DNA of 64,000 nucleotides from Bacteroidota bacterium (GTDB taxonomy: Bacteria; Bacteroidota; Bacteroidia; Chitinophagales; JADIYW01). A model generated the notes under the pieces. That model had not been told where the DNA came from. It did no database searches and worked only from the letters and a program-made list of their open reading frames with translations. Within the stretch, counting starts at the first letter, position 1; each line of letters starts with the position of its first letter. Shown piece by piece: positions 14,735 to 24,696 of this stretch. The DNA lies in contig JAGQYE010000042.1 in the NCBI GenBank assembly GCA_020436225.1, forward strand, positions 1-64,000. The letters are read 5' to 3'. Made by a program: the position numbers and the translations under genes.

Positions 14735-16210
14735 TTAAATTAATTCAGCGCAATTTTGATGTAAAATTTTAGAAATTTCATCTTTTAACCAAAGAAAAAC
14801 GGAAACGTTTCGGAATTCAACAGTGGAAGTTTTATCAAATTCTTGTATTGATTTTTTTATTTTTTCGCAATCAGAAATGGACCATTTTTTGAGCAAACAA
14901 TTTTTGGCAGCTAATGAATATAATAATTTATAGCTATTAGAAATCGGCTTATAATATAGCATATTTTCAGATGATTTTCCTTGCAATAAACTATTGATGA
15001 TGGAGAGTGCTGTATCGAATTCTTTTATTAAATAAAAATATGCCGACTTAATTACCTTCAACATGTAATTTTGAGGAAACGGTGCAGCATCTAGGTCATA
15101 AGAAATATATTTATTTAGGTTTTCTGTATCACGTAAATAGAGATAGCAAATAAGTTTATTATAAAGCAACATATTTTTATACAACGGATTTTCATTTGTA
15201 AACTCATTCTCTAAAATAAATAATGCTTCTTTATAAAATTTACATTTTACCAAATTAGTAATAAAGTTTACATAAAAAACTGTTCTAAAATGCACATTCA
15301 TTAATTGTGCTTCTTGTCTTATAGAACTTAATATTTCATGTGCTTCTAAAAAAAAACCATTGGCAGAAAGTTCTCTACCTTTCGCCATTATCGCTTGAAA
15401 TTGAGCTTCTTTCAAAAGTTTATTTTTTTCTGAAAGTGGCTTGATAATTTCTATTGCTTCATTCAAAAAATTTAGTTGCTTTGTAAACGCATTTGGGTCT
15501 GAAGTTATCGTTATCGATTGCGCATAATTATTATAAAAATTACTGATTGGATTTTTTATTAATTGCAAATGGTATTCATCTAAAAATAAGGACTCATGAT
15601 ATTCGTTGTTATGGCTGTAGGCTAACCAATTATGATACATTTTAAATTGGTTTAGTTTGGCACAATAGGTAGAAATCATATCATTTAACACTTGAGTAGA
15701 TTGTTGAATTATTTCCGGATATTGGTTCATTCGTTTGGCTAAATCTGATATTTTATAATGTAAATTATTTAATTGCAACAAACAAGCATCTAATACAAAA
15801 TTATAAGATGCAAAATTATCTTTCTCACTAATCAATGTATTATAAATTTCATCCATTCCATCAGAAAATTTCAGACGATCGTAGGCATGTATCAACAGCC
15901 AATTATTATACGCTTCATTATTTTTAGAAATATTTTCATGTTCTGTCTGAATAAGAAATTTCTCTAATTCTTCTTTTAACAAACGTATTTCATTACGCCA
16001 CAAATAGTCGTTTTTTTCAGAATAAGTTTTGCCAAATAATTTTCGGAATAACAATCCTCTTTCTAGTTGATCTTCATTTTTTGCAGCTATAATAAGTTTG
16101 TATAATTTCTCTGTTCGTTGCTTTTTTGAAAGAACTAAATATTTCTGGATTTCTTTTGAAAAAGATGATTCTACTTTCTGTACTAATTCAATAATAGGAT
16201 GAATTTGCAT
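14735..16210 (-). CDS. Helical-repeat protein of unknown function
   Basis: The protein is almost entirely helical, with regularly spaced aromatic and leucine positions that suggest TPR-like or other alpha-solenoid repeats. The frame is open from 16270, but the ATG at 16210 (MQIHPIIELVQKVE) is the better start, giving 491 residues; the upstream 20 residues look like non-coding AT-rich sequence. No catalytic motif or signal peptide is seen. It is transcribed away from the dcw cluster. An adaptor or scaffold role would suit the fold, but this is inference. Confidence 0.65.
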   Translation of the reverse strand: MQIHPIIELVQKVESSFSKEIQKYLVLSKKQRTEKLYKLIIAAKNEDQLERGLLFRKLFGKTYSEKNDYLWRNEIRLLKEELEKFLIQTEHENISKNNEAYNNWLLIHAYDRLKFSDGMDEIYNTLISEKDNFASYNFVLDACLLQLNNLHYKISDLAKRMNQYPEIIQQSTQVLNDMISTYCAKLNQFKMYHNWLAYSHNNEYHESLFLDEYHLQLIKNPISNFYNNYAQSITITSDPNAFTKQLNFLNEAIEIIKPLSEKNKLLKEAQFQAIMAKGRELSANGFFLEAHEILSSIRQEAQLMNVHFRTVFYVNFITNLVKCKFYKEALFILENEFTNENPLYKNMLLYNKLICYLYLRDTENLNKYISYDLDAAPFPQNYMLKVIKSAYFYLIKEFDTALSIINSLLQGKSSENMLYYKPISNSYKLLYSLAAKNCLLKKWSISDCEKIKKSIQEFDKTSTVEFRNVSVFLWLKDEISKILHQNCAELI

Positions 16211-16535
16211 ATTCTCAAATATATATAAAAAATAATATCCTAACGTTATTTTATGAAGCGCTGAATTCAAATGATAAATGCAATTTTATTTTAATGAACT
16301 TACCACATTCATAAATTAGAAACGTCTTCTCAAAATTCTAATTTATCAATGAACAAAACTCGATACTACAATTTTTGATTTTAGTGTTTATTTCTCTACA
16401 AATTCTGATTTGTGTTTATTCTACTATGTTGAAAAAATGCTATTGAAAATCATCAATTTATAATTGAAATTCACATTCAATGCACATAAAAACTAGAGAT
16501 ATACACATTTTTTGAGTTATTCACACTTTGGATAA

Positions 16536-16569
16536 TGGTAGAAAATGGGAGAAAGTGGTAAGAAATGGT
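16536..16569 (+). promoter_or_regulatory. Four direct-repeat MraZ boxes upstream of mraZ
   Basis: TGG occurs at 16536, 16546, 16556 and 16566 in repeats of the form TGGKARAAAN with an exact 10-base period; the fourth is followed by T-rich sequence. In Escherichia coli, MraZ binds TGGG repeats separated by 5-base spacers, which also gives a 10-base period. The array ends 11 bases before the -7 box and covers the -33 region. This fits autoregulation of the dcw cluster by MraZ. Confidence 0.78.
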
Positions 16570-16580
16570 AATTTTTCATT

Positions 16581-16588
16581 TACTTTTG
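16581..16588 (+). promoter_or_regulatory. -7 promoter element of the dcw cluster
   Basis: TACTTTTG fits TAnnTTTG and lies about 25 bases before the mraZ ATG at 16613. The expected -33 position falls inside the MraZ box array and shows no separate TTTG. Confidence 0.6.
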
Positions 16589-16612
16589 TCTTAGAAGATT
16601 CAATTTCTAAGT

Positions 16613-17074
16613 ATGTTCTCATTTACAGGTCAATATGAAGTTAAAGTGGATGGCAAAGGTCGTCTTCGTTTGCCGTCTGACCTGTTGCGCCAAATTCCGG
16701 AAGATACCAATACAAAATATGTCATCAACAAAGGATTGGATAAATGCTTACGCCTTTATCCGATGACGCAGTGGAATTCCGTTACCGCAGAAATGAACAA
16801 GAATTTAAGTTGGTTTCAATCAAAAGAAAGAACATTTGCGCGCTACTTTTTTCAAGCAGCAGCACAAGTTGAAGTAGATAGCAACGATAGAATTATTATT
16901 CCAAAAAGATTAATTGACGATATCGGCATCCAAGCAGAAGTAGTCATCATTGCGTTTGGCGAAGTGATTGAAATTTGGAACAGCGAAGAGTTCTACAACA
17001 ACATTGCAAAAGAACCGGAAGACTTTGCAAATATGGCAGATGAAATTTGGTCGAAGATAAATAACAATAAATAG
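16613..17074 (+). CDS. mraZ: Transcriptional regulator MraZ
   Basis: The 153-residue protein starts MFSFTGQYEVKVDGKGRLRLPSDL and has a second VDSNDRIIIPKRL block near residues 87-100. These are the two SpoVT/AbrB-like half-domains of MraZ, which forms a ring-shaped oligomer and represses its own operon. It is the first gene of the division and cell-wall cluster, as is usual. The box array directly upstream is the expected target. Confidence 0.96.
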   Translation: MFSFTGQYEVKVDGKGRLRLPSDLLRQIPEDTNTKYVINKGLDKCLRLYPMTQWNSVTAEMNKNLSWFQSKERTFARYFFQAAAQVEVDSNDRIIIPKRLIDDIGIQAEVVIIAFGEVIEIWNSEEFYNNIAKEPEDFANMADEIWSKINNNK

Positions 17075-17098
17075 TTCTTTAAACAAGCATAAACGTAC

Positions 17099-17992
17099 AT
17101 GTATCATATTCCGGTAATGTTAGACGAGTGTATAAATGGGTTGCAAATTTTGCCGGATGGAATTTATGTTGATGCAACTTTTGGCGGTGGCGGTCATTCA
17201 AAAGAAATTTTGAAACACTTAAATGAGAACGGAAAATTATTTGTGTTTGATGTGGACGATGATGTTCAACAAAATGTTCCGAACGACAAACGCTGCACTT
17301 GGATAAAAGCAAATTACAGACACCTAAAACGATTTTTGAAATTGTATAATGTTACTCAAGTAAATGGCATCTTAGCTGACTTTGGCATCTCATCACATCA
17401 GATTGATGAACCTGAACGTGGTTTCTCTACGCGCTTTGATGCTCCATTGGATATGCGCATGAATAGAAGTGAAGGTGTTTCTGCAAAAGATATCGTAAAC
17501 AATTATTCAGCCGAGCAACTGCAACACATCTTAGGAAATTATGGAGAAGTGATAAACGCCAAAACTTTAGCAAAAAAAATTGTTGAACATCGAACTGCTC
17601 AACCGATAGAAACAACCGGCGAATTAGTAGAAATATGCAAAAGTGTTTCAAGAGGAATTGAAGTAAAATATTTGTCGCAAGTTTTTCAAGCTATAAGAAT
17701 AGAAGTCAACGACGAATTAAATGCCATTAAAGATTTCTTGGAACAAAGCGAAGAAGTATTGGCAAAAGATGGTCGCTTAGTCATCATGAGTTATCATTCA
17801 TTAGAAGATAAGTTGACTAAAAATTTCATGAGAAACGGTGTGTTTGAGGGCGAACCGGAAAAAGATGTGTTCGGAAAATTTGAACATCATTTAAGAGTAA
17901 TTACTAAAAAACCAATTGAAGCATCATCAGAAGAATTAAAAAGAAATAAACGCGCACGAAGTGCAAAACTAAGAATAGCCGAAAAAATATAA
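17099..17992 (+). CDS. rsmH: 16S rRNA (cytosine-1402-N4)-methyltransferase
   Basis: The 297-residue protein has the SAM-binding motif DATFGGGGHSKEIL (about 25-38), DFGISSHQID (about 94-103) and YHSLEDKLTKNF near residue 238, all diagnostic of RsmH (formerly MraW). It methylates N4 of C1402 in the 30S P site. The start MYHIPVML is typical. It follows mraZ by 24 bases, the normal dcw order. Confidence 0.97.
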   Translation: MYHIPVMLDECINGLQILPDGIYVDATFGGGGHSKEILKHLNENGKLFVFDVDDDVQQNVPNDKRCTWIKANYRHLKRFLKLYNVTQVNGILADFGISSHQIDEPERGFSTRFDAPLDMRMNRSEGVSAKDIVNNYSAEQLQHILGNYGEVINAKTLAKKIVEHRTAQPIETTGELVEICKSVSRGIEVKYLSQVFQAIRIEVNDELNAIKDFLEQSEEVLAKDGRLVIMSYHSLEDKLTKNFMRNGVFEGEPEKDVFGKFEHHLRVITKKPIEASSEELKRNKRARSAKLRIAEKI

Positions 17993-18018: not shown

Positions 18019-18408
18019 ATGATAAACGAAGACGAACATATAGAGCCAACACCTAAGAAAAACAAATTTCAATATGTAATTGAAAGTACATTGCGCATTT
18101 TAGGCGTCGAAGAATTTGTCAGCTATGCACAAGTCATGCACAATTTTATTTTCGTCTTAGCCATAGTGTTTATTGGCGTCTTAGAAATATTTAATACGCA
18201 TTTGGCTGTTCGTTTAAATAGAAATATTAGTAGAAAACAAAATCAAATAAAAGAATTGCGTTGGGAATATATCAGCACTAAAACAGAAATGAATTTGAAA
18301 AGCAAACAATCGGAATTGCAAAAAGTATTAGAACCATTTGGAGTAAAAGCATTGCAAGAACCACCAAAAAAAATTGAAATAAGCGAAGATGCTTTGATTA
18401 AAAAATAA
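18019..18408 (+). CDS. ftsL: FtsL-like cell division protein
   Basis: A 129-residue bitopic membrane protein. It has about 45 cytoplasmic residues, one membrane segment (around NFIFVLAIVFIGVLEIF, 47-63), and a periplasmic coiled coil (about 70-105) with basic and hydrophobic heptads. FtsL scaffolds FtsB, FtsQ, FtsW and FtsI in the divisome. Sequence conservation is low in the family, so the call leans on the position between rsmH and ftsI and on topology. Confidence 0.85.
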   Translation: MINEDEHIEPTPKKNKFQYVIESTLRILGVEEFVSYAQVMHNFIFVLAIVFIGVLEIFNTHLAVRLNRNISRKQNQIKELRWEYISTKTEMNLKSKQSELQKVLEPFGVKALQEPPKKIEISEDALIKK

Positions 18409-18430
18409 ACAGAATTGAAGAAAACAACTA

Positions 18431-20533
18431 ATGAACGTTAAGTCCAACATATTATTAAGAGTTTACCTTGTAGCAGGTTTATGCTTGTTGTTTGGTGTTA
18501 TTGTGTTGGGCAAGATTTATGAAATCCAAACGTATAAAAATGGTTATTGGAAATCTTTAGCCGATAGCTTAACTACAAATTATTTCGATGTTAAAGCAGA
18601 AAGAGGCAATATTTATTCTGCTGATGATAAATTGTTAGCAACGTCAATTCCTTATTTCGACTTACATGTTGATTTGGCTTCTTCTGCTATGACGCAAGAA
18701 ATTTTTCGAAACAATGTGGATTCATTAGCCTATTATATGTCCAAGTATATAGGTAAACTTTCAGCTAATGAATACAGACAACGATTAGTAAATGCTCGAA
18801 ATAAGAAAAATAGATATTACCCGATTTTTAAAGATGCAAATTACAATCAACTTAAATTTATCAAGCAATGGCCACTTTTCCGAGAAGGAAAATTTAAAGG
18901 TGGATTGATAGTTGAATCGCATCAAGAAAGAAAAAATCCGTATGGTTATTTAGCACAAAGAACTATTGGACTTGTTAGAGAAAATGCGCAAGATATAGGT
19001 TTAGAAGAAGCTGTTGATTCTTTATTGGATGGAGTAGAAGGAAAAGTTCTAAAACAAAAAATTGCCGGCGGAGAATGGATTCCAATTAAAGGTGCTAATC
19101 AAATAGAACCTAAAAATGGTTTTGATATTATAACAACCATCAACTTAGGCTTGCAAGATATTACAGAGTCAACCTTGTTACAAGCAGTTACAGAATATAA
19201 AGCAGATTTTGGTTGCGCTGTGTTGATGGAAGTGCAAACCGGAGCGATAAAAGCTATCGCTAATCTTGGCAAAAATAAAAATGAAACATATTCTGAGAAT
19301 TTTAATTACGCCATTGGATTGAGTAATGAGCCTGGTTCAGTATTTAAAACAGCCGGCTATTTAGCTTTATTTGATGATGGCTATATAACCTTAAACGATT
19401 CAATAAATACCAATCATGCAACCGCATTTTTTGCAGGAGTAAAATTAACTGATGATGGTCATAATTCTCAATATACTTTTTTAACTCCCGGAAAAGCGTT
19501 GGCTATTTCTTCAAACGTTGCAATTGCCAATTGGTTGGTAAAATATTATGGCAATAACAAACAAGCATATTATAACAAACTAAAACAATTCGGGTTAACA
19601 GAGCCTACAAATATTACTTTAAAAGGAGAGAGAAAGCCACTTATTCATAAGCCTGAACAATGGAGTGCAATTTCTATTCCTTGGATGGCACATGGTTATG
19701 AAGTGAAATTAACGCCATTGCAAATCCTAACATTTTACAATGCAATTGCCAACAATGGAACACGCGTTCGCCCATATTTAGTAGATAGAGTGGAAGATAA
19801 CGGCAAAATAATTCGACAATATGCTTTTGAAAAAAACAGCCAAAAAATCTGTAGTGAAAATGCTGCACAAATGGCAAAAGCAATTTTGTTGCGTGTAACA
19901 GAAGATAAAAATGGAACAGGTAGAAAAATTAGATCTCCATATTATAGAATTGCCGGAAAAACAGGAACAGCTAAAATGAGTTTCGGTAATACCGGTTATA
20001 CAGATAAAAATTTGTCCACGTTTGTAGGCTTCTTTCCTGCAAATCATCCAATGTACTCTTGTATTGTTGTGCTGGGCGGACCACAAGGTTTATTTACTTC
20101 CGGCGGCGTGGTGTCTGCTCCGGTTTTTCGAACAATGGCTGATAAAATTATTACATCCAACATCGCATCTAATACAGCCGTTAATAAAGATTCACTTTTA
20201 ACAAATCAACCTATTCCACCGGTTCTTGGAACAAGTACTTATGTAGAAGAATTGATGAAACGTTTAAAGATACGATTCAATTTCGGAGAAAATTGGAATT
20301 ATGCTTTGTTGCGCGCCGATGAACAAAATAAAAATTGGATTACGAAAATTTCTTATCCAAGCAATAATACGATTCCAAATGTCAAAGGTTTATTGTTAGA
20401 TGATGCTGTCAGCATTTTAGAGAATAAAGGATTAAAAGTTGTCTTCAGTGGAAAAGGAAAAGTGAGTCAACAATCATTAAACGCAGGAAGCCCTATAATA
20501 AAAGGAAATGAAATCTATTTAACACTGAATTGA
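18431..20533 (+). CDS. ftsI: Division-specific peptidoglycan transpeptidase (PBP3 type) with a PASTA domain
   Basis: The 700-residue class B penicillin-binding protein has an N-terminal membrane anchor (about 8-28) and a dimerisation domain starting at the RGNIY motif (about 58-62). The transpeptidase signatures are GSVFK (catalytic Ser near 303), SSN (near 360) and KTG (near 511). A C-terminal PASTA domain (about 650-700) begins TIPNVKGLLLDDAV. It cross-links septal peptidoglycan with FtsW. PASTA domains on division PBPs are common in Bacteroidota and Gram-positives. It lies 22 bases after ftsL. Confidence 0.95.
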   Translation: MNVKSNILLRVYLVAGLCLLFGVIVLGKIYEIQTYKNGYWKSLADSLTTNYFDVKAERGNIYSADDKLLATSIPYFDLHVDLASSAMTQEIFRNNVDSLAYYMSKYIGKLSANEYRQRLVNARNKKNRYYPIFKDANYNQLKFIKQWPLFREGKFKGGLIVESHQERKNPYGYLAQRTIGLVRENAQDIGLEEAVDSLLDGVEGKVLKQKIAGGEWIPIKGANQIEPKNGFDIITTINLGLQDITESTLLQAVTEYKADFGCAVLMEVQTGAIKAIANLGKNKNETYSENFNYAIGLSNEPGSVFKTAGYLALFDDGYITLNDSINTNHATAFFAGVKLTDDGHNSQYTFLTPGKALAISSNVAIANWLVKYYGNNKQAYYNKLKQFGLTEPTNITLKGERKPLIHKPEQWSAISIPWMAHGYEVKLTPLQILTFYNAIANNGTRVRPYLVDRVEDNGKIIRQYAFEKNSQKICSENAAQMAKAILLRVTEDKNGTGRKIRSPYYRIAGKTGTAKMSFGNTGYTDKNLSTFVGFFPANHPMYSCIVVLGGPQGLFTSGGVVSAPVFRTMADKIITSNIASNTAVNKDSLLTNQPIPPVLGTSTYVEELMKRLKIRFNFGENWNYALLRADEQNKNWITKISYPSNNTIPNVKGLLLDDAVSILENKGLKVVFSGKGKVSQQSLNAGSPIIKGNEIYLTLN

Positions 20534-20543
20534 AAATTGAATT

Positions 20544-22010
20544 GTGCTTAGAATTTTAAATGACATATTAGCAAATGTAAACATCCAAAAAATAATTGGA
20601 GATACAACTCTTGTTATTCAACAATTGAGATTAGATTCTCGTAAAGTTGAATCAGGCGATGTTTTCTTTGCTATAAAAGGCAATGCAGTTGATGGTCATA
20701 CTTTCATTTCTAAAGTAATAGAACAAGGCGCAATTGCAATTATTTGTGAAGAAATTCCAAGCACAATCAAGGAGAATATTGTCTATGTACAAGTGCAAGA
20801 CGCACGTAAAGCATCAGCAATTATGGCGTGCAATTTTTATCAGCATCCATCAAAAAAAATAAAGTTAGTTGGCGTAACCGGAACAAATGGAAAAACATCT
20901 ATCGCTACGTTGTTACATCAAATTTATCTTCAACAAAATTTTAAAAGTGGATTGCTTTCTACTATCGTCAACAAAATTGGAGATAAAGAAATTCCATCAA
21001 CGCATACAACACCTGACCCAATTGCTATTAATGCGTTGTTACAAAAAATGGTGGAAGAAGGTTGCGAATATGCCTTTATGGAAGTCAGCTCGCATGCCGC
21101 CGACCAAGATAGAATTTTTGGATTAGAATTTTGTGGTGCCATCTTTACTAATATCACACACGACCATTTAGATTATCACAAAAATTTCCAAGAATATATT
21201 TATGCAAAGAAAAAATTCTTCGACCAATTACCTGAATCTGCATTTGCATTAACCAACATCGATGATAAACGCGGCAATGTGATGTTGCAAAATACATCGG
21301 CAAAAAAATATACGTATGCTGTAAAAACCTTAGCCGATTTCCGTTTTAAAATTTTAGAAAATTCTTTCAGCGGTTTAGTCGTTGCATGCGATGATACAGA
21401 AGTGCATTTGCAAATGATTGGCCGCTTCAATGCCTATAATTTATTGGCAATTTACGCTACATGTTGCTTGTTAGGTATGCAAAAAGAAACAGCACTAAGT
21501 GCTATTTCCATGCTTAAAGGAGCAGAAGGAAGATTTGATGTGATACAATCTGCTACACAAATTAATGCTATTGTAGATTACGCACACACACCGGACGCAT
21601 TAAAAAATGTATTAGATACCATTAATGAAATTCGCACACACAATGAACAAGTCATTACTGTTGTTGGCTGTGGAGGCAATAGAGATAAAACCAAACGTCC
21701 TGAAATGGGATTAATCGCCAGCGAACTTTCTACCAAAGTAATTCTCACTTCTGATAATCCACGAAATGAAGTTCCGGAAACCATCATCCAAGAAATGAAA
21801 GCTGGTGTACCACCGCACAACTTCAATAAGATAATGACAATTACCGATAGGAGAGAAGCGATACGCGTGGCTTGCAACTTGGCAAATCCAAAAGATATTA
21901 TTCTGTTGGCAGGTAAAGGACACGAAAAATATCAAGAAATAAATGGCGTAAAACACGACTTCGACGACAAAAAAATAATTGTAGAAATATTAAAAGAGCT
22001 CAATAAATAA
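20544..22010 (+). CDS. murE: UDP-MurNAc-tripeptide synthetase (meso-diaminopimelate adding)
   Basis: The 488-residue Mur ligase has the ATP-binding GTNGKT (about 113-118). The DNPR motif near residue 404 in the C-terminal domain is the signature of meso-diaminopimelate specificity; lysine-adding enzymes differ here. It adds the third stem-peptide residue in the cytoplasm. The start is GTG at 20544: the first in-frame ATG lies well inside domain 1, so a non-ATG start is required. It begins 10 bases after ftsI. Confidence 0.95.
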
Positions 22011-22029
22011 CCAACATAAACTAAAAGAA

Positions 22030-23331
22030 ATGCTATACTATTTATTCAAATATCTACAAGAAAATTTCGGACTTTCAGGCTCGGGATTATTCCAATACAT
22101 TTCGTTTAGAGCCTCAATGGCTATTATACTTTCGCTCATTATTTCAATGTTGATTGGAAGACGCGTTATTCGTTGGTTGAGAAAAAAACAAATCGGCGAA
22201 TCTGTACGCGATTTAGGGTTACAAGGTCAAACAGAAAAGAAAGGAACACCAACAATGGGCGGCGTTATCATCATTGCAGCTATTGTAATTCCAACTTTAC
22301 TTTTTGCTCGTTTAGATAATATCTATGTAATTCTACTTTTGATTTCGACAATTTGGTTGGGTGCAATCGGTTATATTGATGATTATATAAAAGTATTTAA
22401 GAAAGATAAAGAAGGTTTGCGCGGTCGGTTTAAAATCCTGGCACAAATTGGATTAGGATTGCTTGTTGGATTTATCATGTATTTCCATCCTTCTGTTAAA
22501 GTGCGCGATTACAATACTGTTTTTGAATATAAAATTGAAAAAGACGGAAAAGTAAATTTAAATAAACCTATCCATGAATACACTGCGAGAGATAATCGAA
22601 TAAAAAATAAAGGTGAAATAGTTAATGATAAATTTTTATCACACGATACAAAAGAACTAAAAACAAACGTTCCTTTCTTAAAAAATAACTTAGTAGATTA
22701 TTCTTATATCATTTCTTTTATCACAGATGATTACCAAGATTGGGGCTGGATAATTTTTATTCCGATTGTCATTTTCATCATCACAGCTGTTTCTAATGCA
22801 TCTAATCTTACTGATGGAATAGATGGCTTAGCAGCAGGCGTTTCAGTTATTGTATTAATTACATTAGCCATTTTTGCTTATGTTTCCGGTAACGTAAAAT
22901 TCGCAGATTATTTGAATGTATTATACATTCCAAATTCCGGTGAAGTGGTAATTGTGTGTGCTGCATTAATTGGCGCAACCATAGGTTTTCTTTGGTACAA
23001 TTCTTTTCCAGCTACCGTGTTTATGGGCGATACAGGCAGTTTAATGTTGGGCGGAGTTATTGCTACTATAGCTATTATTGTTCGCAAAGAATTATTGATT
23101 CCGATTTTGTGTGGTATTTTCTTTATCGAGAATTTATCTGTTATTCTGCAAGTTTCTTATTTCAAATACACACGAAAAAGATATGGCGAAGGTCGGCGCA
23201 TTTTTAAGATGACACCAATACATCATCATTTTCAGAAAGCCGGTTATCATGAAGCAAAAATTGTATTGCGCTTTTGGATTATCAGCATTCTTTTAGCAGT
23301 CATCACATTTGTAACCTTAAAAATCAGATAA
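22030..23331 (+). CDS. mraY: Phospho-MurNAc-pentapeptide translocase
   Basis: The 433-residue polytopic membrane protein carries KKGTPTMGG (about 70-78), the [11 protein letters not shown] aspartate pair (about 116-125) and [12 protein letters not shown] (about 258-269), as well as FMGDTGS and the HHH block ([10 protein letters not shown]). It makes lipid I from UDP-MurNAc-pentapeptide and undecaprenyl phosphate. It is longer than the E. coli enzyme (360 residues) because of an insert around residues 160-230, typical of Bacteroidota MraY. Confidence 0.96.
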
Positions 23332-23358
23332 AAAAAACGAGCATTTCCAAGCATCAAA

Positions 23359-24696
23359 ATGAAAAAAAGAATAGTCATATTAGGAAGTGGTGAAAGCGGT
23401 GTTGGCGCTGCTATCCTTGCACAACAGCAAGACTTTGATGTTTTTGTTTCTGATTTTGGAACAATAAAATCGAATTACAAAGAAGAACTTACGCAACATC
23501 AAATTGCGTTTGAAGAAAATCAACATACAGAAGAAAATATTTTAAATGCGGATATCATTATCAAAAGTCCGGGCATACCTGACAAAGCTCCAATCATCAA
23601 AAAAATAAAAGAAAAAAATATTGAAATTATTTCAGAGATAGAATTTGCATCACGTTATTCTAAGGCAACAATTATTGCAATAACGGGAACGAATGGAAAA
23701 ACAACAACAACATCTTTAACTTATCACATATTATCTAATGCCGGTTTAGATGTTGGCTTAGGTGGCAATATCGGTACTTCGTTTGCGCGACAAGTTGCCA
23801 ACGGCGACAAGCAATATTTTGTATTAGAATTAAGCAGTTTTCAATTAGATAACTGTGTTACGTTCCGGCCACATATTGCTGTTTTGTGCAACATCACTGA
23901 AGACCATTTAGATAGATACGAGTATAAGTTCGAAAATTATATTCGTTCCAAATTCAGCATTACAAAAAATCAAACTAACGAAGATTATTTCATCTTTTGC
24001 CAAGATGATGAAACGACTATCAATTATTTTGATTTTGCTAACAATGCTGTTCAAAAAATTCCATTTTCTTATTTCCAAAAAGTAAGCGAGGGCGCTTATG
24101 TAGAAGACAAAAATATTATTATCCAACTCAATAAAACCAACTTTATTATGCCAATCAGCGAACTATCTGTACAAGGAATACACAATTCCTACAACTCTAT
24201 GGCTGCAGCCATTTCAGCAAAATTAGTAGGCGTGCGAAACGAAAAAATCCGAGAAAGTTTAGAAGACTTTAAAAGCTTAGAACATCGCTTGGAATTTGTT
24301 GCTACTGTCAAAGGTGTCGATTTTATTAATGATTCCAAAGCCACCAACGTCAATTCAACTTGGTACGCCTTAGAATCTATGACCAAACCTATCGTACTTA
24401 TTGCAGGTGGTGTGGACAAAGGAAACGATTACACACTGATTAAAGAATTAGTGAATCAACGAGTAAAAGCGATTATCTGTTTAGGAAAAGATAATGATAA
24501 ACTACACGAAGCATTTGCTTCTGAAGTCGGCTATATCGTTGATGCACGCAGTATGGAAGAAGCCGTTCAGTTAGCTTATAACATTAGTGAGAAAGGCGAT
24601 GCTGTGCTGTTGTCGCCTTGTTGTGCCAGCTTCGATTTGTTTGAAAATTATGAAGATAGAGGCAAACAGTTTAAACGTAATGTGTTCAATCTTTAA
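23359..24696 (+). CDS. murD: UDP-MurNAc-L-alanine--D-glutamate ligase
   Basis: The 445-residue Mur ligase has an N-terminal UDP-binding Rossmann motif (ILGSGESGVGAA, about 6-17), the GTNGKTT ATP loop (about 110-116) and a C-terminal block ending LSPCCASFDLFENYEDRG, typical of MurD. It adds D-glutamate to UDP-MurNAc-L-Ala. The position between mraY and ftsW matches the classic dcw order. Confidence 0.96.
   Translation: MKKRIVILGSGESGVGAAILAQQQDFDVFVSDFGTIKSNYKEELTQHQIAFEENQHTEENILNADIIIKSPGIPDKAPIIKKIKEKNIEIISEIEFASRYSKATIIAITGTNGKTTTTSLTYHILSNAGLDVGLGGNIGTSFARQVANGDKQYFVLELSSFQLDNCVTFRPHIAVLCNITEDHLDRYEYKFENYIRSKFSITKNQTNEDYFIFCQDDETTINYFDFANNAVQKIPFSYFQKVSEGAYVEDKNIIIQLNKTNFIMPISELSVQGIHNSYNSMAAAISAKLVGVRNEKIRESLEDFKSLEHRLEFVATVKGVDFINDSKATNVNSTWYALESMTKPIVLIAGGVDKGNDYTLIKELVNQRVKAIICLGKDNDKLHEAFASEVGYIVDARSMEEAVQLAYNISEKGDAVLLSPCCASFDLFENYEDRGKQFKRNVFNL

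Follow-up and report, generated by a model that had tools for sequence, protein, structure and literature searches.

The stretch of DNA analysed here (the window, 64 kb in full) belongs to a genome of 2.69 Mb in 141 contigs and carries mraZ and dcw-type genes on its forward strand. The mraZ gene (16613..17074, +) encodes a 153-aa protein in which PF02381 was matched over two stretches (2.3e-27; 95.2 bits against a cut-off of 23), and both copies of the domain exceeded the curated cut-off in the genome search as well. Solved Mycoplasma-type MraZ chains (PDB 1n0e, 9qlg, 9qlr and 9sx6), with which the protein was compared by sequence and molecule name alone, matched it over 129–138 residues, at E values between 4e-14 and 8e-13. 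Its D13-x3-R17 and D89-x3-R93 segments do not vary among 15 relatives and align with identical residues of those chains. The MraZ of the window is intact. The nearest named records, with 59–78% identity in MraZ, are assemblies from metagenomes that bear the labels Bacteroidota, Sphingobacteriales or Chitinophagales, which places the window in an uncultured Bacteroidota lineage close to them. In the ORF list mraZ is followed by the next ORF of the dcw (division and cell wall) cluster (17099..17992, +), which we take to be rsmH/mraW-like from its position and motifs, and by further dcw-type ORFs (18019..24696, +), presumably, as judged by gene order, for a small membrane protein, a PBP-like protein and murE-, mraY- and murD-like products.

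Upstream of mraZ, four TGG trinucleotides start at 16536, 16546, 16556 and 16566, spaced by exactly 10 bp as a preliminary description of the locus had reported, and the pattern TGGN7TGGN7TGGN7TGG was found once in the 64-kb window against none in 100 dinucleotide shuffles. The spacing is exact while the units are non-identical: in the AAAGTGG register, the predicted MraZ boxes on the forward strand read ATAATGG (box 1, 16532..16538, the weakest), AAAATGG (box 2, 16542..16548), AAAGTGG (box 3, 16552..16558) and GAAATGG (box 4, 16562..16568), only the third being the family consensus. Counted from the T of each TGG, base 4 is T, G, T and T and base 5 is A in all four units, so the TGGKA core proposed earlier is right. 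Four units were readable in seven aligned genus members (own included), box 1 being CGG or GGG in two of the seven and the counterpart of box 4 being TGT with TTTG before it (TTTGTGT) in five. The array precedes the mraZ -7 box, as had been claimed, with TACTTTTG (16581..16588, +) beginning 15 bp after the last TGG start; this element has the TAnnTTTG form of a Bacteroidota housekeeping promoter at -7 and aligns as TAnTTTTG in 7 of 7 genus members. Setting the T of TAnnTTTG at -12 (PMC6847099, in excerpt) predicts the transcription start at 16593 (+) and would put the TGGs of boxes 1 to 4 at -57, -47, -37 and -27, respectively. The locus thus holds what marks an MraZ box operator, namely direct TGG[G] or AAAGTG[T/G] repeats at 10-bp spacing in the mraZ promoter region. 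An Rfam search of 16000–17200 gave no match.

Conservation of the array upstream of mraZ

For comparison, 155 mraZ upstream regions were collected with one genome per species, comprising 56 from the same order (own included), 36 from the same class and 63 from other classes. In the first set, mraZ was found in 57 of 60 genomes and 50 were used (G013, G015, G027, G038, G041, G050 and G053 left out), and in the second set it was found in 206 of 218 genomes, which contributed 25 of 30 loci (the other five had been included before) plus 80 additional stretches. Low-scoring mraZ matches without coordinates, the large family f36 among them, lie outside the sample, family f25 dominates the class set, and the counts do not represent independent events since the sampled genomes are related. 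Where one upstream region held several chains, the best-scoring one was taken, which favours GTGG-like chains; one of the 63 outer-class regions held no TG[GT] pair, so that geometry counts there refer to 62. Another phylum, that of Ignatzschineria (L206), which we take to be Pseudomonadota, was represented by 30 loci from 39 genomes with a match among 60 genomes searched. In all eight sampled genomes of family f43 (G084, G114, G140, G155, G159, G167, G190 and G198), which are 99–100% complete, no mraZ match was found at E 0.001, and the gene has therefore apparently been lost in this family.

The preliminary description had proposed to compare the mraZ upstream regions of relatives, where a lack of the repeats would count against its reading, and the comparison revealed an array that is conserved across the phylum. 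Chains of at least three TG[GT] units at exactly 10 bp were detected in 53 of 56 order members, 34 of 36 class members and 34 of 63 members of outer classes, compared with 1.2–1.5% of shuffles. Chains of at least two units were present in 56/56, 36/36 and 62/63, respectively, and in 27–33% of shuffles, so that a two-unit chain alone is weak evidence. When GTG[GT] was demanded, chains of at least three units were still found in 45, 28 and 15 regions (of 56, 36 and 63) against ≤0.03% of shuffles. Four TG[GT] units are present in 29 of the 56 order members, so that this number, which had been noted as a difference from E. coli, is not special to the genome. Distances between TGGs peaked at 10 and 20 among the 155 regions, and also at 30 in the order and the outer classes.

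Across the sampled regions the unit consensus is (A)AAGTGGK (GTGGKAAAAA / AAAGTGG), with AAAGTGG as the majority box in Bacteroidia, and the invariant letters are TG and the preceding G, not the A-runs alone. The base after TGG is T in 66–85% of class members, depending on the unit, whereas in units one and two of the outer-class members it is G in 77–78%, which is also the E. coli base. Covariation of this base with residues of MraZ is conceivable. In the other phylum, a chain of at least two units was found in 27 of the 30 regions and one of at least three in 25, while the Ignatzschineria region itself (L266) gave no chain.

The wider MraZ regulon was sought in the own genome by three TGGs at 10-bp spacing, which yielded 16 matches in the whole 2.69 Mb; 14 fell inside open frames of 120 codons or more, including a four-TGG run within a 1007-codon frame (C62), and the remaining two are the mraZ array, so that no second three-box array was found outside such frames. 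This negative refers to three-box arrays, and further two-box sites may exist: the two-box pattern RTGGKARRAARTGG has five exact matches in the genome, three in the mraZ array and two elsewhere (C69 and C119), and with at most one mismatch it has 59, versus 20 for the pattern read backwards.

Position of the array relative to the promoter

Bacteroidia have the array upstream of the -7 box and in one helical register. In the outer classes, E. coli and other Pseudomonadota, by contrast, it comes after a TTGACA-type -10 wherever a promoter can be recognised. In 56 of 92 Bacteroidia a TAHHTTTR begins 13–15 bp past the last box T (shuffle mean 0.9, max 4), and in 36 it is absent at that distance; with T at -12, the boxes fall at -25 to -27, -35 to -37, -45 to -47 and, if there are four, -55 to -57. 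Among the 65 Bacteroidia with TAHHTTTR 2–30 bp past the last box T (first such match taken), all 65 hold it in register, at 5–7 modulo 10, part of which may stem from the box itself, since TGGTA supplies a TA in step; the looser TAnnTTTR added two off-register matches, one at 12 and one at 20 bp. On the other side, 38 of 62 outer-class regions carry TTGACN{16-20}TANNNT close to the first box (shuffle mean 0.2, max 2), and the distance from the -10 T to the first box T is 5–7 or 14–19 bp in 35 of them, while this E. coli-type placement just before the first box was seen in 0 of 92 Bacteroidia. Of the 30 regions of the other phylum, none showed TAHHTTTR at 13–15 bp and 12 had a TTG[AC][CA]-type promoter immediately ahead of the array.

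In family f20, TG[GT] units stand on both sides of a TATTTTG element in six of seven sampled genomes (G031, G056, G145, G169, G180 and G204; not G044), as if the promoter lay inside the array, and this fits an array that shifts by gain and loss of whole boxes. The f20 element, TATTTTG(T), is similar to a motif of F. psychrophilum, SM5, with the sequence TAnnTTGY (PMC9723704, in excerpt). We infer that the upstream position in Bacteroidia is derived.

The array was further compared with the -33 zone in the 56 Bacteroidia having a -7 box at 13–15 bp. TTG starts between -38 and -30 in four of them and TTTG in six, and neither stands near -33 in the promoter of the window; with so few cases, the array occupies the -33 place. 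The earlier proposal that the array replaces a -33 box therefore holds for the covering of the zone, while 'replaces' exceeds the data. That wording is weakened by what excerpts of the literature say of the -33 motif, namely that it is "much less evident" in F. johnsoniae RNA-seq (PMC6847099) and that the element is non-essential, though required for full activity (PMC2483708); for B. fragilis the motif was deduced from 23 promoters (PMC7366714, in excerpt). Replacement of a -33 box by the array is thus possible. The possibility that the last spacer conceals a -33 TTTG was considered as well; a TTTG placed 4 bp ahead of the T of the last box was found in 14 of 56 order members and in 0 of 36 class members, and it was rejected as a general feature.

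A DnaA-box-like element upstream of the array

A putative DnaA-box-like 9-mer, TTATTCACA (16517..16525, +), which matches TTATNCACA, was found 19 bp before the first TGG, and a genus-conserved AGATATACACA block (16497..16507, +), possibly a second DnaA-like site, lies further upstream, the AGATATNCACA block being present in 7 of 7 genus members. Within 120 bp of the first box and on either strand, the relaxed TTWTNMACA occurs in 38 of 56 order and 31 of 36 class members (shuffle means 5.2 and 3.6, max 10 each), and in 11 of 62 outer-class regions against a shuffle mean of 4.4 (max 11). The strict TTATNCACA is present in 18 of 56 order members (0.8 expected) and one of 36 class members (0.3 expected), and TTATNMACA in 24 of the 36; relatives carry TTATYAACA or its reverse, or TGTGGAWAA (e.g. 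L004, L005, L008, L009, L079 and L082). Upstream of the array, the relaxed 9-mer reaches 8.0 and 8.9 per kb (32 and 23 loci longer than 2 kb), compared with a 20- to 24-fold lower density, 0.33 and 0.44 per kb, elsewhere in those mostly coding loci.

Genome-wide, the own genome has 133 TTATNCACA versus 103 for the pattern read backwards, which is little excess, and TTATCCACA is rarer than its control (12 versus 27). Near dnaA one TTATCAACA was found, inside the upstream reading frame (oriC was not located), and among the dnaA loci of 13 genomes the 9-mer matches were scattered, a single outer-class genome having three of them close together. The literature search, mostly of titles and abstract starts, returned no paper evidently on a DnaA box at mraZ in Bacteroidota. 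The element is a lead, read from sequence, and its TTATYAACA form departs from the usual DnaA box.

Discussion

The array of the window resembles that of E. coli Pmra in having GTGG repeats at exact 10-bp spacing upstream of mraZ, yet it does not simply mirror it, as had been suggested. In E. coli K-12 (L213) three GTGGG boxes, at 292, 302 and 312, lie downstream of TTGACA-N18-TAAACT (TTGACA at 254, TAAACT at 278; the promoter is our own reading), the first box 38 bp after TTGACA, whereas in the window four GTGGK/ATGGK boxes lie upstream of TAnnTTTG. Eraso et al. (2014) reportedly gave the MraZ boxes of Pmra as TGGGN repeats. The Mollicutes MraZ site, AAAGTG[T/G] direct repeats (Fisunov et al. 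2016, via PMC8475190, in excerpt), has the same unit as the Bacteroidia majority box AAAGTGG and the TGT form of the last box within the genus, although the promoter type differs from that of Bacteroidia. A search of the literature, mostly titles and abstract starts, yielded no paper on MraZ boxes in Bacteroidota. The operator is of a type known in kind, and its placement in Bacteroidia is lineage-specific and without an earlier description in the literature searched.

The four repeats are very probably an MraZ operator, with binding predicted from sequence, a reading supported by the conservation of the array upstream of mraZ across the phylum; that this operator sits at the dcw promoter and serves negative autoregulation from the upstream side we regard as likely. 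Such autoregulation is reported for the MraZ of E. coli and M. genitalium, and here it would act from upstream of the promoter instead of downstream. MraZ would bind as a ring whose adjacent subunits hold one box apiece along the same face of the DNA, covering about -60 to -23. Bound MraZ would then keep away sigma region 4 and the alpha C-terminal domains, with which RNA polymerase contacts the -33 zone, and transcription of mraZ and the genes behind it would be lowered, the promoter being free when MraZ is scarce.

The strict register exceeds what simple steric repression needs and would also fit a contact with RNA polymerase, that is, activation, in which MraZ at -27 to -57 would hold the polymerase at a promoter without a -33 element. 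The fixed register to the -7 box in 65/65 and the mostly missing -33 TTG (a start between -38 and -30 in 4/56) speak for activation, and activators usually sit upstream. So does M. gallisepticum, where MraZ overexpression went with more FtsZ, from which the sign of the MraZ effect may vary; however, the same source calls E. coli MraZ a repressor and states that dcw transcripts rise when MraZ is lost in M. genitalium (PMC8475190, in excerpt). Moreover, the proximal box, at -27, would lie partly within the footprint of the polymerase, and the -33 element is weak across Bacteroidota (PMC6847099, in excerpt), so that we consider activation unlikely and favour repression, the sign of regulation being what we infer.

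A further reading, in which another protein binds the array or the repeats are phased A-rich bent DNA with MraZ uninvolved, could appeal to the A-runs phased at 10 bp and to the helix-phased AT-rich motifs at -18 and -28 of F. johnsoniae promoters (PMC6847099, in excerpt). It appears very improbable, given that TG and the G before it are invariant rather than only the A-runs, that the unit is the Mollicutes MraZ repeat (PMC8475190, in excerpt), and that it also precedes mraZ in the 27 of 30 regions of the other phylum. Three-TGG patterns do occur in coding frames of the genome (the 14 matches above), yet a chance or codon-derived repeat is practically inconceivable at this locus, being ruled out by the 0/100 shuffles, the conservation in relatives and the non-coding location.

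Beyond the MraZ operator itself, it is conceivable, though on the doubtful side, that the Bacteroidia dcw promoter is a two-input switch, in which the relocated MraZ array is combined with a DnaA-like site coupling the division genes to replication initiation. The array would in that case have moved by whole boxes, on the same face of the DNA, from the downstream to the upstream side of the promoter.

MraZ is a widespread bacterial regulator whose boxes are known in kind. The survey points to a single operator type that changes sides without losing its helical register to the promoter, standing after the -10 in Pseudomonadota and the outer classes and before the TAnnTTTG box in Bacteroidia, which offers a testable pair for one protein controlling two promoter types. 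If the DnaA-like site is real, division-gene expression would be tied to replication initiation. For a phylum whose housekeeping sigma factor is unusual, the locus provides a one-operon model of how division genes are regulated.
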